From the NCBI RefSeq assembly GCF_003860125.1, contig NZ_RQYL01000024.1, positions 1 to 47,742 of the forward strand: a stretch of DNA of 47,742 bases, written 5' to 3'. The translations under genes and the position numbers were made by a program. Shown here in pieces: positions 3,290 through 9,323 of this stretch (its first letter is position 1; the number at the start of each line of letters is the position of its first letter). This DNA comes from Fretibacterium sp. OH1220_COT-178 (GTDB lineage Bacteria > Synergistota > Synergistia > Synergistales > Aminobacteriaceae). The notes beneath the pieces were generated by a model. It did no database searches and was not told the DNA's origin. It saw nothing but the letters and a program-made list of their open reading frames with translations.

Positions 3290-4417
3290 TTAGATTTCCC
3301 CTTCGTGCAGATAGCGGAACAGATCCCCGTTCGAGAGTTTCTCGAGTCCGAGGCTGCGCAGGGTACGTCCTCTTCGGGCGAAATCGATGCCGGACAGGGA
3401 GGCGGCGAGGGAGGCCACCCCCTTGTTGACGGGGCAGGGAATCTCGTGGCGCTCCAGAATCTCGATAAGGGGCAGCAGACCGAAGGGAACGTCCTCCGTC
3501 AGGTAGCGGTGCTCGAAGGTTTTCGGCAGTTTGCCCAGGGAAAGGCCGGGGTGGCTGCTCACGATTTCGACCAGGGATTCTCCCCGGACCCCGTGGTAGG
3601 CGTACCAATCCTTGATTGTGAACTTCCAGTCCTTCAACGACCGAAATACGCCTTTTTCGAGCAGCTGCATGCGCTCGGCGTTCATATCCTCGTTGACGCG
3701 GGCTACCGCTTCGCTCATGGCGCTCAGGTGTTCTCCGTCGTGGTAGAGCAGCACCTCGGCCTTCCGGTCGACGTAACACGCGTTGAAGACGACCGTGGTC
3801 GCATGCAGGGAGGGGTTGGGGTTCGATACCCCGGTCTGGACGATGTTCTCGAACTCCACGATCTCGGGATAGAGGGCCTTGAGTTTTTCCACCAGAGCCG
3901 TCGCCGATTTGCCGGGAAAGGAGGCGACACCGAGCCCGTGCTTGTACCCGCCTGCCCAGATCGTCGAGGGATTGGTCTTGAATGTGGCGTAGATGGTGTT
4001 GTTCATCTCGGCGACCGCGATGGGCTCGTGGTTGCCGTTCTTTTTGAGCGTCCGGGAGAATTCCAGGCTGCCGTACATGTAGCCCGAGGAGAGGTAGACG
4101 TACTGTTCCTTCCTCAGGTACGGGGCACAGACCTCCGCGGCTCGGGCCTCTCCGTATGCGGGTACAGCGACGATGACGATCTCCGCATCCTTCAACGCGG
4201 CGGCTATGTCCGTCGTGATGGTGCCGATTTCAGCGAATCCCTGGGGAAGGCCGTTGCCCTCGCATATCTCCATGTGGATGCCGCCCAGTTTTTTTATCTC
4301 GGCGACGGACTCCGAGAACTCCGGAAACTCGTAGAGGGCGACCTCGTGCCCCTTCAGAGAACAATGTGCGGCGGTCGTGAAACCGCAAGCGCCCGCGCCG
4401 ATGACTGCTATTTTCAT
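3290..4417 (-). CDS. NAD/NADP octopine/nopaline dehydrogenase-family protein
   Basis: A 375-residue protein. The N-terminus MKIAVIGAGACGFTTAAHCS is a Rossmann dinucleotide-binding glycine motif, followed by VIVAVPAYGEARAA. The C-terminal half (about 185-340) has the helical opine dehydrogenase domain, including TGVSNPNPSLHATTVVFNAC and WYAYHGVRG; the His in NPNPSLHA is the type of residue that acts in catalysis in this family. Members interconvert a keto acid plus an amine-bearing compound and an N-carboxyalkyl amino acid. It is the last gene of the gntR-TRAP unit, 55 bases after dctM, so it probably acts on the imported acid. ATG 4417 has AAAGGAG about ten bases upstream. The substrate is not predictable from sequence. 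Confidence 0.85.
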   Translation of the reverse strand: MKIAVIGAGACGFTTAAHCSLKGHEVALYEFPEFSESVAEIKKLGGIHMEICEGNGLPQGFAEIGTITTDIAAALKDAEIVIVAVPAYGEARAAEVCAPYLRKEQYVYLSSGYMYGSLEFSRTLKKNGNHEPIAVAEMNNTIYATFKTNPSTIWAGGYKHGLGVASFPGKSATALVEKLKALYPEIVEFENIVQTGVSNPNPSLHATTVVFNACYVDRKAEVLLYHDGEHLSAMSEAVARVNEDMNAERMQLLEKGVFRSLKDWKFTIKDWYAYHGVRGESLVEIVSSHPGLSLGKLPKTFEHRYLTEDVPFGLLPLIEILERHEIPCPVNKGVASLAASLSGIDFARRGRTLRSLGLEKLSNGDLFRYLHEGEI

Positions 4418-4472: not shown

Positions 4473-5765
4473 TCAGACCGAGGAGGGCATGAAAAACCGC
4501 GGAATGAACAGGAAAAGCTCCGGGAACAGGATGCCGAGGACGATGACCCCGATCGTGAGGAAGATCATGGGCAGAATCGCCAGGAAGGCACGCGGGGTGC
4601 TTATCCCCCCCAGTTGGGACGCGATCAGAAGGCAGATCCCGTAGGGGGGTGTGATCAGCCCCAGGGAGAGGGTCAGGTTGACGATGATCCCCAGGTGCAG
4701 GGGGTGGATTCCCACGCTGTCCCCCATGCGCTGGAGGATGGGCAGAAAGATGATGACGGCCGTCAGGGGGCTCAGGAAGGTCCCGACGACGAGGAGGAAC
4801 AGGACGATCATGGCGTAGACGCCGTAATAGCTGCTGGTCATGGACAAAATCCAGTTCGCCACCATCACGGGAGCGTTCAGATAGGCGATGAGCCAGCCGA
4901 AGATACTGGCGTTCGCGACCGCGAACATGGGGACGGCATACCCGACCATGGAGTCCGCGAAGACCGCGGGGAGGTCCCTGACGCCGATATGGCGGTAGAC
5001 CAGAAGGATCAGGACCAGGCCGATGAGTACGGCGACGGCGGCCGCCTCGGTTGCCGTAAAGTACCCCAGGGTGACCCCTCCCAGGATGATGAAGGGCAGG
5101 GACAGGGGCGGAAGGGCCCGGGCGGTCACCCTGAGGCGTTCGAGGTAGCCCTTACGCGGCAGGGAGGGATAATCGCGCTTTCGGGCCAGGCAATAGGTAT
5201 AGACCATCTGGGCGATGCCGATCAGGATTCCGGGGACGATCCCGGTCAGAAAGAGAGCTCCGATGGAAAGCTGCCCCATCGCGCCGTAGACGACCATCAG
5301 GATGCTGGGGGGGATGATCCCGCCGAGCGTCGAGGAGGCCGCCGTGATCGCGACGGAAAAATCCGTGTCGAAACCGGCCTTTTTCATCGCCGGGATCAAC
5401 ATGGCCCCGATGCCGGCCGTGTCCGCCGAGGAGGAGCCGGAAAGCCCTGCAAACAGCATGCTGACCATGACGTTGACGTGCCCCAGACCGCCCTTGATGT
5501 GGCCGACCCAGGCGTCCGAGACCTTCATCAGACGGTCGGTGATACCGCCGTCGTTCATCAGTCTGCCGAGCAGCAGGAAAAAGGGCACCGCAAGCAGCGG
5601 AAAGGAGCTGATTCCACTGAACATCTGATTGACCATCGACATGAACGGCAGCCCCAGCTGGACTATGGTCAGCAGGGAGGACAGGCCCAAGGCGAAGGCC
5701 ACGGGCACTCTGATGGCGATGAAAAGGAAGAAAGTTCCCAGAAGAAAGAGCAGAGGAGCGTTCAT
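4473..5765 (-). CDS. dctM: TRAP transporter large permease (DctM type)
   Basis: A 430-residue, very hydrophobic protein with about 12 membrane segments. Family signatures include VPFFLLLGRLMNDGGIT, FAGLSGSSSADTAGIGAMLI and GIIPPSILMVVYG, typical of the DctM ion/substrate-translocating subunit. The protein works with DctQ and the periplasmic DctP to drive uptake of organic acids with a sodium or proton gradient. Its ATG overlaps the dctQ stop by four bases, indicating translational coupling. The dehydrogenase follows after 55 bases. The length is normal for the family. Confidence 0.95.
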   Translation of the reverse strand: MNAPLLFLLGTFFLFIAIRVPVAFALGLSSLLTIVQLGLPFMSMVNQMFSGISSFPLLAVPFFLLLGRLMNDGGITDRLMKVSDAWVGHIKGGLGHVNVMVSMLFAGLSGSSSADTAGIGAMLIPAMKKAGFDTDFSVAITAASSTLGGIIPPSILMVVYGAMGQLSIGALFLTGIVPGILIGIAQMVYTYCLARKRDYPSLPRKGYLERLRVTARALPPLSLPFIILGGVTLGYFTATEAAAVAVLIGLVLILLVYRHIGVRDLPAVFADSMVGYAVPMFAVANASIFGWLIAYLNAPVMVANWILSMTSSYYGVYAMIVLFLLVVGTFLSPLTAVIIFLPILQRMGDSVGIHPLHLGIIVNLTLSLGLITPPYGICLLIASQLGGISTPRAFLAILPMIFLTIGVIVLGILFPELFLFIPRFFMPSSV

Positions 5766-6265
5766 TTTCTCCCCTCCTCTCCCCCCTGGGGGGTCTTGAA
5801 GGCGCCGATGTCGATCAGAATGTTTTCAAGGTTGAACAGAAACATGAAGGCGGCGCTGATCGGCAGGGAGACAAAAAGCCAGAAGCGCGGGATCTCCAAA
5901 GCCGTTGTCAGCCGGTACCACCCGAGAAGGGCAAATTTCGTCCCTCCCCATATCAGTGCGAGGATGACGAGCGAGACAAGCAGTTCGGAGAGAACGAGCA
6001 TGGCCTTGTTCAGTTTGACGTGGCGGGCGGGGATCAGATCGACCACGTAATGGCGCCTCGTCGACAGCGCTACGGCCGATCCCAGCAATATGGACCAGAT
6101 GAATGCGAAGACGGCGACCTCGGAGGTCCAGTCCATCGATACTTTCAAAATGTTTCTCGAAAGAACTTGCAGCAGAACGGCAACCACAAAAATGCCCAGG
6201 AGCGATACCCCGGAGAACAGCAACAGCTTTCGGATCCTCATATTGAATCGGTGAAGAATATTCAA
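5762..6265 (-). CDS. dctQ: TRAP transporter small permease (DctQ type)
   Basis: A 167-residue membrane protein with four predicted helices and the DctQ pattern VLLQVLSRNILKVSMDWTSE, then WSILLGSAVALSTRRHYVVD. It pairs with DctM in the inner membrane. The preferred start is TTG 6265, preceded by GGAAGGTGA; an internal ATG at 6241 lacks a ribosome binding site. It is separated from dctP by a 126-base gap that contains a strong hairpin, and overlaps dctM by four bases. Confidence 0.92.
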   Translation of the reverse strand: MNILHRFNMRIRKLLLFSGVSLLGIFVVAVLLQVLSRNILKVSMDWTSEVAVFAFIWSILLGSAVALSTRRHYVVDLIPARHVKLNKAMLVLSELLVSLVILALIWGGTKFALLGWYRLTTALEIPRFWLFVSLPISAAFMFLFNLENILIDIGAFKTPQGGEEGRK

Positions 6266-6346
6266 GAGGTCACCTTCCTTGTCGAAATGCGGGGCAAGGC
6301 ATCCTTGCAGCCTTTCGTGGGCTCAAGGATGGAGCGCGCGCCGAAT

Positions 6347-6382
6347 CTTGAGGCGTCGGGCGGTCGGGCCCGACGCCTCAAG
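6347..6382 (-). promoter_or_regulatory. Intercistronic hairpin between dctP and dctQ
   Basis: CTTGAGGCGTCGGG (6347-6360) pairs perfectly with CCCGACGCCTCAAG (6369-6382) around an 8-base loop. It has no T tract on the minus-strand 3' side. A second weaker pair, CATCCTTG near 6300 with CAAGGATG near 6324, lies just downstream. This fits partial termination or mRNA-end protection that would give more binding protein than permease, as is common in such operons. Confidence 0.75.
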
Positions 6383-6391
6383 GATTTTTCG

Positions 6392-7393
6392 TCAGTGGTC
6401 CCGGACCTCCCGCATCAGATTCAACAGGTCGGTGTAGCCGCCGTCCTTCGCAAGTTCATCCTGCAGAGGGCTGTAGAGCTTCATGAAGGCGTCCTTGTCC
6501 ACCTCGTTGACGATGGCGAGTTTTTTGTCGATCATCTCCTGAAGCAGGCGCTCGTCGTATTCCAGGCCCTTTTGGGTCACGATGGCTCCGGCCTCCGAGC
6601 ACACGCCGGCCACGATGTCCCGATAGGCTTCGGGCAGCTTCCTGTAGGTCGCCTCGCTCATGAAGACGCCGCTGATCATGTATTGATGCTGCGTTTTGCT
6701 GTGATATTTCGCAACCTCGTAAAGCTTGCTGCCGTAATAGCCGCTGATCGTCGATTCGAAGGCGTCCACGACCCCCGTCTGAACTGCGGAATAGACCTCC
6801 CCCCAGCTCGTCGGCGTGGTGATCGCCCCCGCCAGCCCCCAGATCTTGCTTTCGATGGGGGAGCCGGGCACGCGCATCTTCATCCCCTGCAAATCGTCCG
6901 GGATCCGGATGGGTTTGATCCTGTTGGAGTACTGACGGGTTCCGCCCCCGCCGAGGGCCAGAAGCTTGATCCCCAGATTGCGGTCCTGGAAGAGTTTTTG
7001 GAAATACTGCAGAACCTTGCTGTCCTTTCCCGTCACCTTGCGGAATTGATCGTAGTCCTTGAAGAAATAGGGGTAGGACAGCACGACGGTTTCCGGGATC
7101 ATGGAGGACAGGACCATCATGCCCTCGAGGCCGAAATCGATGGTGCCCATGCTGATTTCGTCGAGGATCGCCTGAGAGGTTCCCAGGCTCGAGCTGTGAT
7201 AAATGGTGATGCTGACCTTGCCGTCCGTTTTTTTTGCGACTTCCTCCGCAATGAAATTGGCGGCGTCGATCCAGGGATGGGGAGGCGTTGCCGTGACCGC
7301 CAGCCGAAGTTCGTATTCCGGGGCGGCCAGAGCGGGAGCGGCACAGTTCGACAAAAGGACCAGCAGGGCGAGGACGAACACGATCTTTTTCAT
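6392..7393 (-). CDS. dctP: TRAP transporter periplasmic binding protein (DctP type)
   Basis: A 333-residue protein. A signal peptide (residues 1-23, ends APALA) leads into a DctP fold: YELRLAVTATPPHPW, the substrate-contacting arginine region GMKMRVPGSPIESK, and PTSWGEVYSAVQTGVVDAFE, which is nearly diagnostic. It captures an organic acid in the periplasm and delivers it to DctQM. No lipobox, so a soluble periplasmic protein as expected of a diderm. ATG 7393 has AAAGGAGCT upstream. It is the first structural gene after gntR (151-base gap). The ligand cannot be named; an opine, keto acid or N-acyl amino acid is suggested by the dehydrogenase in the same unit. Confidence 0.95.
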   Translation of the reverse strand: MKKIVFVLALLVLLSNCAAPALAAPEYELRLAVTATPPHPWIDAANFIAEEVAKKTDGKVSITIYHSSSLGTSQAILDEISMGTIDFGLEGMMVLSSMIPETVVLSYPYFFKDYDQFRKVTGKDSKVLQYFQKLFQDRNLGIKLLALGGGGTRQYSNRIKPIRIPDDLQGMKMRVPGSPIESKIWGLAGAITTPTSWGEVYSAVQTGVVDAFESTISGYYGSKLYEVAKYHSKTQHQYMISGVFMSEATYRKLPEAYRDIVAGVCSEAGAIVTQKGLEYDERLLQEMIDKKLAIVNEVDKDAFMKLYSPLQDELAKDGGYTDLLNLMREVRDH

Positions 7394-7544
7394 GATACAG
7401 CTCCTTTCATGCTCTCTTTTTATTTATCCTGGGGAAAACAATGAGCTTCAATACTGAACGGTGCCGTGTATCGGTTGAGGATGGCAGGTTTTGCTGTCTC
7501 ACCTCCTTGACAGGATTGCGTTGTGGATGGCTGTCCCCGGAAAT

Positions 7545-8222
7545 TCAGGGATCCGTCTCCCAGTCTTTCCCCGGATTGCGCTGACGGGACAGACGTTGTG
7601 AGAGAAGACGCCGGAGGCCTTCGAGGTCCTTCGCCCTCAGGCAGTCCAGCATCGCGCGATGCGTTTGGAAGCTGTGTCGCATGTAGCCGTATTTGTAAAG
7701 CCAGCCGACAAAGGACAGGCGGATTTGGTAGGAAAGGTTCGTCAGTAATTTCCTGGTCCAAAGGCAGTGGTCCTTCGCAAGAGCGTGAAGCTGCATGTGA
7801 AATTCCATCTCCTTTTCCAGGAAACAATAGACTTTTTCAATGCCGTTCTCCTCCTCGGCGATCTCCCCCAATTCGTGGTTGATTTGTTCTGCGGGAAGGA
7901 GATCCGCCTCGGAGAAACTGGCGCGGTTGATGGCCGTCTCGAAAAGGGAGTGCTCCAGGAGCGTGCGGATGGTGTTGATCTCCAGGATCTCCTCCTCGCT
8001 CGGATCGGCGACGAACCACCCCTTGTACTTGATGGAGACGAGGAATCCCTGGGCCTCCAGTTCCTTGAAGGCCTCCCTCACAGGGGCCCTGCTGATGTTC
8101 AGGGCACGGGCGATCTCCCGTTCGTTGATCTGGCTGCCTGGGGAGAGAGCCCGCTCCTCGAATATCTGCTTTCTGACGTGGCCGATAATGACGTCCTTCA
8201 GGTCTTCAACAGGTCTGTACAC
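7545..8222 (-). CDS. GntR-family regulator with FCD domain
   Basis: A 225-residue protein. An N-terminal winged helix (about 10-75) contains INEREIARALNISRAPVREA, the GntR recognition region. A helical C-terminal FCD domain (about 80-210) carries EFHMQLH and HRAMLDCL, where metal- or ligand-binding residues of the family normally lie. The start is GTG 8222 with GGAG eight bases upstream, and that site is inside the 74-bp palindrome described separately. It heads the TRAP/dehydrogenase unit and most likely represses both that unit and itself until the transported acid binds. Family assignment is firm; ligand unknown. Confidence 0.93.
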   Translation of the reverse strand: MYRPVEDLKDVIIGHVRKQIFEERALSPGSQINEREIARALNISRAPVREAFKELEAQGFLVSIKYKGWFVADPSEEEILEINTIRTLLEHSLFETAINRASFSEADLLPAEQINHELGEIAEEENGIEKVYCFLEKEMEFHMQLHALAKDHCLWTRKLLTNLSYQIRLSFVGWLYKYGYMRHSFQTHRAMLDCLRAKDLEGLRRLLSQRLSRQRNPGKDWETDP

Positions 8223-8224
8223 TG

Positions 8225-8298
8225 TTCAGCTCCATCTGATAGAGTGTTCGGGTGGTCGACCGGTCGACCACCCGAACACTCTATCAGATGGAGCTGAA
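8225..8298. repeat. 74-bp perfect palindrome at the gntR start (candidate operator)
   Basis: Bases 8225-8261 are the exact reverse complement of 8262-8298: two 37-base arms with no loop and no mismatch. The centre is GGTCGACCGGTCGACC (8254-8269), so GGTCGACC, itself a palindrome, is repeated twice. The GGTC...GACC pattern resembles operators of FCD-type GntR proteins such as FadR (core GGTCnGACC). The left arm contains the gntR ribosome binding site and the right arm the -10 element. Transcription starting near 8271 would copy the left arm but only part of the right, so the element should act mainly as DNA. Confidence 0.97.
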
Positions 8299-8306
8299 TT
8301 GGTCAA
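8278..8306 (-). promoter_or_regulatory. Candidate promoter of gntR
   Basis: On the minus strand TTGACC (8301-8306) is followed by exactly 17 bases and TAGAGT (8278-8283). The predicted start point is near 8271, which puts the twin GGTCGACC boxes (8254-8269) directly over the first transcribed bases, as expected for autorepression. Confidence 0.6.
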
Positions 8307-8406
8307 TAAGTGCGAAAGTTGCGTGCTCTGTGTCCGGGCAGGACAGCTGGAAGGGGCCGGGGCTTGGCGCCACCCCAAAATGGCGAATCCAAAAAGTTCG
8401 AATGCG

Positions 8407-8438
8407 AAAGGGGCGAGGCCTCTCAGCCCCGCCCCTTT
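8407..8438 (-). terminator. Terminator of the rbs operon
   Basis: AAAGGGGCG (8407-8415) pairs with CGCCCCTTT (8430-8438), with an inner GGC/GCC extension. On the minus strand the stem ends in TTT. It lies ten bases past the rbsB stop. The remaining bases 8299-8406 contain only the gntR -35 element and nothing else I recognise. Confidence 0.7.
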
Positions 8439-8447
8439 ATTTGCACC

Positions 8448-9323
8448 TCACTCCGTCACCAGCATCAGCTCCACGGGGATGAAGGCGGGGAGCTCCTTCT
8501 TGTTCAGGAGGTCGTCGGCGGCACCGACGCCCTTCGCTCCGATCTCCGCGGGCTTCTGCGCTACCGTGGCGGTCATCTTCTTCTCCTTGACGGCCTTCAC
8601 CGCGTCGTCCGTCGCGTCGAACCCCACCAGGACCACCGCCTTACCCGCGGCCTCCAAAGCCCTCAGGGCTCCGAGGGCCATCTCGTCGTTGTGGGCGAAG
8701 ACGGCGTCGAAATCCGGCTGCGCCTGAACGACGTCCTCCATGACCGTCAGACCCTTGGTGCGGTCGAAATCGGCGGTCTGGCGCGCCACGACCTCCAGCT
8801 TGCCTTTGACGGCCTCGTTGAAGCCCTGCCCACGGTCGCGGGCCGCGGTCGTGCCGGGGATGCCCTCAAGCTCAACGACCTTGCCCTTGCCGCCGAGCTT
8901 CTGGAGGATGAATTCTCCGGCCATCCTGCCGCCGGCCACGTTGTCCGAGGCGATGTGGGCAACGACGGTGCCTCTGTTCGCTCCCCGGTCCAGGGTGACG
9001 ACGGGTACGCCCGCCTTGTTCGCCGCGGCGACCGCCGACCCCACCGCATCGGAGTCCGTGGGGTTGATCAGCAGGACATCGACGCCCTTCACCAGCAGGT
9101 CCTCGACGTTCGAAAGTTCCTTGGCCGGGTCGTTCATGGAGTCCAGAATCGTGAGGTCGTGCCCCAGCTCCTTGGCCTTCGCCTCCGCGCCCTCCTTCAG
9201 CGTCACGAAGAAGGGGTTGTCCTGCGTGGAGATCACCAGCCCCAGCCGCGCCGCTTCCGCGCTTCCGGCCAGAAGAAGCCCAAAAACGCAAAGCAATACC
9301 GCAATCCGTTTCATTCTCTTCAT
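8448..9323 (-). CDS. rbsB: Ribose ABC transporter periplasmic binding protein
   Basis: A 291-residue protein with a signal peptide (ends GSAEA) and a sugar-binding type 1 fold. Stretches such as [55 protein letters not shown] and [13 protein letters not shown] closely follow enterobacterial RbsB, including the ribose-contacting Asn-Asp-Glu region. It binds ribose in the periplasm for RbsAC. ATG 9323 is preserved by AAGGAGGT eight bases upstream; a second in-frame ATG at 9314 is less well placed. It is the last gene of rbsDACB. No rbsK or rbsR is in the window. Confidence 0.95.

Follow-up and report, generated by a model that had tools for sequence, protein, structure and literature searches.

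The window, the whole 47,742-nucleotide stretch of Fretibacterium sp. OH1220_COT-178 DNA that was analysed, carries a minus-strand gene for a 225-aa GntR-FCD regulator of the FadR subfamily (gntR, 7545..8222). Its product combines an N-terminal winged helix-turn-helix domain (Pfam PF00392, E 1.9e-12) with a C-terminal FCD domain (PF07729, E 1.6e-10), both above the cut-off. Compared with the named equivalogs (PhnR-type, NanR, LldR, PdhR and CsiR), its top score was 69 bits, where 271.5 was required, and it reached the cut-off of none of them. Downstream of gntR on the same strand lie genes assigned by Pfam to a TRAP transporter (dctP-dctQ-dctM, 4473..7393) and, last in the same-strand run, an octopine/nopaline dehydrogenase-like gene (3290..4417, PF02317). 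The gntR-TRAP order is retained in the relative G075, and the TRAP proteins are 45-69% identical. A ribose-type ABC operon on this strand precedes gntR, and after it repeat, terminator and promoter scans placed a hairpin (8407..8438) that is probably a weak terminator, since a T run is absent on the minus strand.

A repeat search and our own scan both recovered a perfect, gap-free palindrome of 74 bp (8225..8298), as an earlier note on this DNA had described. Its two 37-base arms (8225-8261 and 8262-8298) are 100% complementary with no spacer, and its centre is GGTCGACC repeated twice (8254-8261 and 8262-8269). Given the base composition of the window, about 2e-15 centres with arms of at least 37 bases are expected by chance in 2.86 Mb; the palindrome is real in the assembly and chance is ruled out.

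The sole promoter-like site in 7380-8500 is a sigma-70-type gntR promoter on the minus strand (8278..8306), with a -35 element TTGACC (8306-8301), a 17-bp spacer, a -10 element TAGAGT (8283-8278) and a TGn extension. The palindrome stops 2 bp short of the -35, which lies just outside it and had gone unmentioned in the earlier note. On the minus strand, the -10 is followed by 7 nt, TGGTCGACCGGTCGACCA (8270-8253), the mirror copy, the Shine-Dalgarno core GGAG (8230..8233), another 7 nt and the GTG start codon of gntR (8222-8220). The distal, promoter-side arm (8262..8298, minus strand) therefore holds the -10 and the proximal arm (8225..8261, minus strand), which forms the 5' leader, carries the ribosome binding site (RBS), an arrangement that the earlier note had read correctly. 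Only CA stands between the proximal arm and the start codon, so that gntR would have no visible RBS if this arm were removed. One end of the palindrome falls within the -35/-10 spacing and the other within the RBS/start spacing, so each arm fits the sequence that adjoins it. A divergent promoter using the mirrored -10 was considered and dropped, as the promoter scan of 7380-8500 flagged none.

The core at the centre of the palindrome, TGGTCGACCGGTCGACCA (8253..8270), consists of two overlapping GTCGAC palindromes 8 bp apart (8255-8260 and 8263-8268), located after the -10. Operators of the FadR subfamily follow the consensus NyGTM-N0-1-KACNy, commonly with an extra box 7-12 nt away (PMC4494728), and the GTCGAC of TGGTCGACCGGTCGACCA, which lies near its own gntR promoter, fits this consensus. 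Copies with no or one mismatch occupy the same promoter position in relatives: a layout of TTGAC-17-TAnnnT, followed 5-13 bp on by the core, is shared by the window and every site compared in relatives, whether a gntR orthologue or a transporter operon lies behind it. Before gntR, the core is exact in G075 and G076 and has one mismatch in Lutispora; it also precedes dipeptide-type ABC permease genes or operons in several genomes. With at most one mismatch it was found in 7 of 188 genomes of the phylum (0 hits for a reversed control pattern). Nine of these 188 genomes encode a close GntR orthologue, and all seven core-bearing genomes are among them, a co-occurrence with a chance of 2.4e-11 if genomes are treated as independent, which ignores their shared ancestry. 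The core was absent from the other two orthologue-bearing genomes, G011 and G013, and from the gntR of G005 itself. The gntR genes of G023 and G033 are accompanied by a related site of spaced form, in which TTGGTCGACC is followed by TCGACCAA or TCGGCCAA as the second half-site. A GntR search of a genome-contig collection gave Lutispora as its sole match, and a viral contig collection yielded no GntR relative; two core matches in viral contigs look like chance on inspection of their flanks.

Since the core fits the consensus, recurs at gntR orthologues as part of the same unit of promoter and operator and co-occurs with the orthologue, we regard TGGTCGACCGGTCGACCA as a well-supported candidate for a conserved GntR-linked operator. 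The likeness of the GGTCGACC repeat to FCD-type GntR operators, raised in the earlier note, is thereby substantiated. We found no description of TGGTCGACCGGTCGACCA as a GntR-FCD operator in the literature searched; sequence comparison would now define it as such and assign it a transporter regulon in Lutispora as well as in the phylum. The genome of the window holds no other operator copy with fewer than three mismatches, so the target here seems to be the regulator's own promoter, with the TRAP genes perhaps controlled as well through co-transcription. Upstream of GntR genes for more distant FCD regulators (L011, L014, L015, L017, L019 and L020), we observed TGTCGACA-type boxes after the -10, which suggests that operator specificity has shifted within the family.

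The operator accounts for only about 18-28 bp of the 74 bp. Our test for an inverted copy was arm length: the perfect arm spans 5-14 bp at the other ten operator sites compared, the G005 case described below excepted, versus 37 bp in the window. Perfect palindromes in relatives measure 10-28 bp, and each arm in the window is about 27 bases longer. The promoter arm of the window resembles those of relatives (TTGACC, 17 bp and TAGAGT, as in G075), and the leaders of relatives at the compared operator sites are short, with neither a mirrored -10 nor a counterpart of the proximal arm. The distal arm is therefore likely to be the original sequence and the leader arm its inverted copy, an assignment that rests on promoter layout. 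A DNA search of 60 relatives with positions 8150-8400 gave no match outside the genome itself; the comparison genomes, from which we infer the copying event, belong to other genera, with about 50-56% GntR identity.

Taken together, these features are most likely explained by an operator-promoter through which an FCD-type GntR repressor controls its own gene and which was lengthened by one inverted duplication. GntR dimers would bind TGGTCGACCGGTCGACCA across the transcription start and so silence the promoter; the position of the operator over the start site argues for repression. A ligand, probably a substrate of the neighbouring transporter, would lift it. In this lineage, the palindromic core may have made replication stall or fold, and in a template switch the polymerase would have copied the promoter arm backwards into the leader, ending 2 bp before the -35. 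The inverted copy would thus have replaced the original leader and supplied the GGAG 7 nt before the GTG. As a predicted side effect, RNA that reads through from the upstream operon would fold along the entire repeat and enclose the ribosome site in the hairpin, while RNA begun at the gntR promoter would start at the operator edge, lack the 5' arm and leave this site partly open; the folding-derived probability that GGAG is unpaired is 0.0 in the former and about 0.3-0.6 in the latter. The folding energy of the palindrome RNA is -69.8 kcal/mol. In bacteria, the conversion of quasipalindromes into perfect ones by template switching is an established kind of mutation (PMC7202029; PMC8794818). 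The earlier note had offered selection or artefact as the alternatives; both are weighed below, but this either/or misses the best-fitting option, a template-switch inverted duplication seeded by a conserved operator.

The earlier note also held that perfect palindromes of such length are unusual and unstable, which proved overstated. In the roughly 2.0 of 2.86 Mb of the genome that were inspected, window included, the 74-bp palindrome is the longest of its gap-free, perfect kind, and it is followed by others of 58, 40, 40, 36 and 36 bp; G005, a single-contig relative, has perfect palindromes of 48 and 36 bp in 0.4 Mb. As long perfect palindromes occur naturally in both genomes, the assertion of necessary instability at 74 bp goes too far. 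Perfect palindromes of about this size are tolerated in E. coli. A breakage study in that species worked with a palindrome of 460 bp (PMC4245961). Among the palindromes in the genome of the window, that of 58 bp (C15:29952-30009; L114:9952-10009) is apparently intergenic and perhaps a two-way terminator, and one of 40 bp (C2:57678-57717; L066:17678-17717) lies 5' of what looks like an ORF start and may be a further operator.

A considerably less likely account is that the long palindrome was selected as a dual device, a GntR operator in DNA and an insulator against read-through in RNA. Its model is phage T4 gene e, in which the RBS is hidden in long transcripts and free in promoter-proximal ones (PMC3014915). 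The folding contrast described above is consistent with such a role, as are the same-strand upstream operon, whose terminal hairpin lacks a T run, and an extended operator followed by T6, 3' of a same-strand gene, in G005. However, RNA from the gntR promoter still pairs GGAG in part, which makes the predicted contrast incomplete, and 9 of the 11 operator sites compared do without such an extension, so it is not needed for regulation.

The G005 operator lies 5' of a dpp-type ABC operon and 3' of a polyA-polymerase-like gene, within a 44-bp palindrome (L117 / L133:14763-14806 approx.; G005:C1 near 1704776) that has 22-bp arms with 1 mismatch, reaches the predicted -10 and is followed by TTTTTT. 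The proposed promoter matches at 8/12 positions, with a stronger promoter-like site further downstream. Simple scans at this site flagged neither that promoter nor the hairpin as a terminator, and we therefore consider G005 a weaker candidate for a second, independent case of an extended operator. This palindrome and its T run may double as a terminator of the polyA-polymerase-like gene. A broader generalization, that template switching has repeatedly expanded the operators of this regulator into long, promoter-capturing palindromes that are retained as insulation from upstream transcription, is in our view unlikely.

The palindrome is very unlikely to be a fold-back chimera inside the contig, whether from assembly, library preparation or amplification. 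The assembly is a draft of 105 contigs and the repeat is perfect up to its last base, as such an artefact would have it. Yet a chimera would not be expected to centre exactly on a conserved operator or to join functional sequence at both ends with correct promoter and RBS-start spacing; gntR would lack a visible RBS without the proximal arm, and the single-contig G005 has long perfect palindromes too. Least credible of all is a single large multi-dimer operator contacted along the entire 74 bp, because, although cooperative multi-dimer operators are known in the subfamily (NanR, PMC8012715), the conserved symmetry ends at about 18-28 bp in relatives and the outer arms hold no further GTCGAC-like box.

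Inverted duplication of the operator-promoter, our preferred reading, would provide a sequence-level example of a repressor operator that seeds an inverted duplication and thereby rearranges the promoter, the leader and the ribosome site all at once, and would illustrate a route by which an otherwise ordinary control region acquires such a repeat. The locus resembles known FadR/FCD GntR systems, whose operators are autoregulated and overlap the promoter start, in its GntR and FCD domains, its fit to the consensus, its placement at the promoters of the regulator's own gene and of transporters, and its extra adjacent box. In contrast to the described motifs, which are mostly A/T-rich and separate GT from AC by 3 nt, the operator in the window is G/C-rich, has a separation of 2 nt, and combines two overlapping cores with an outer 74-bp palindrome. 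As in quasipalindrome template-switch mutation in the E. coli thyA and lacZ reporters, an inverted repeat would have become longer and perfect through copying of one arm; unlike in those cases, the event is deduced from comparison only and a promoter would have been copied into a 5' leader. With the RBS-sequestering hairpins of T4 gene e and I-TevI, the palindrome shares a promoter within the 5' arm, so that the hairpin would form only in upstream-initiated RNA; it differs from them in that it belongs to a chromosomal regulator gene, its hairpin would double as a DNA operator and its RNA contrast comes from folding prediction.
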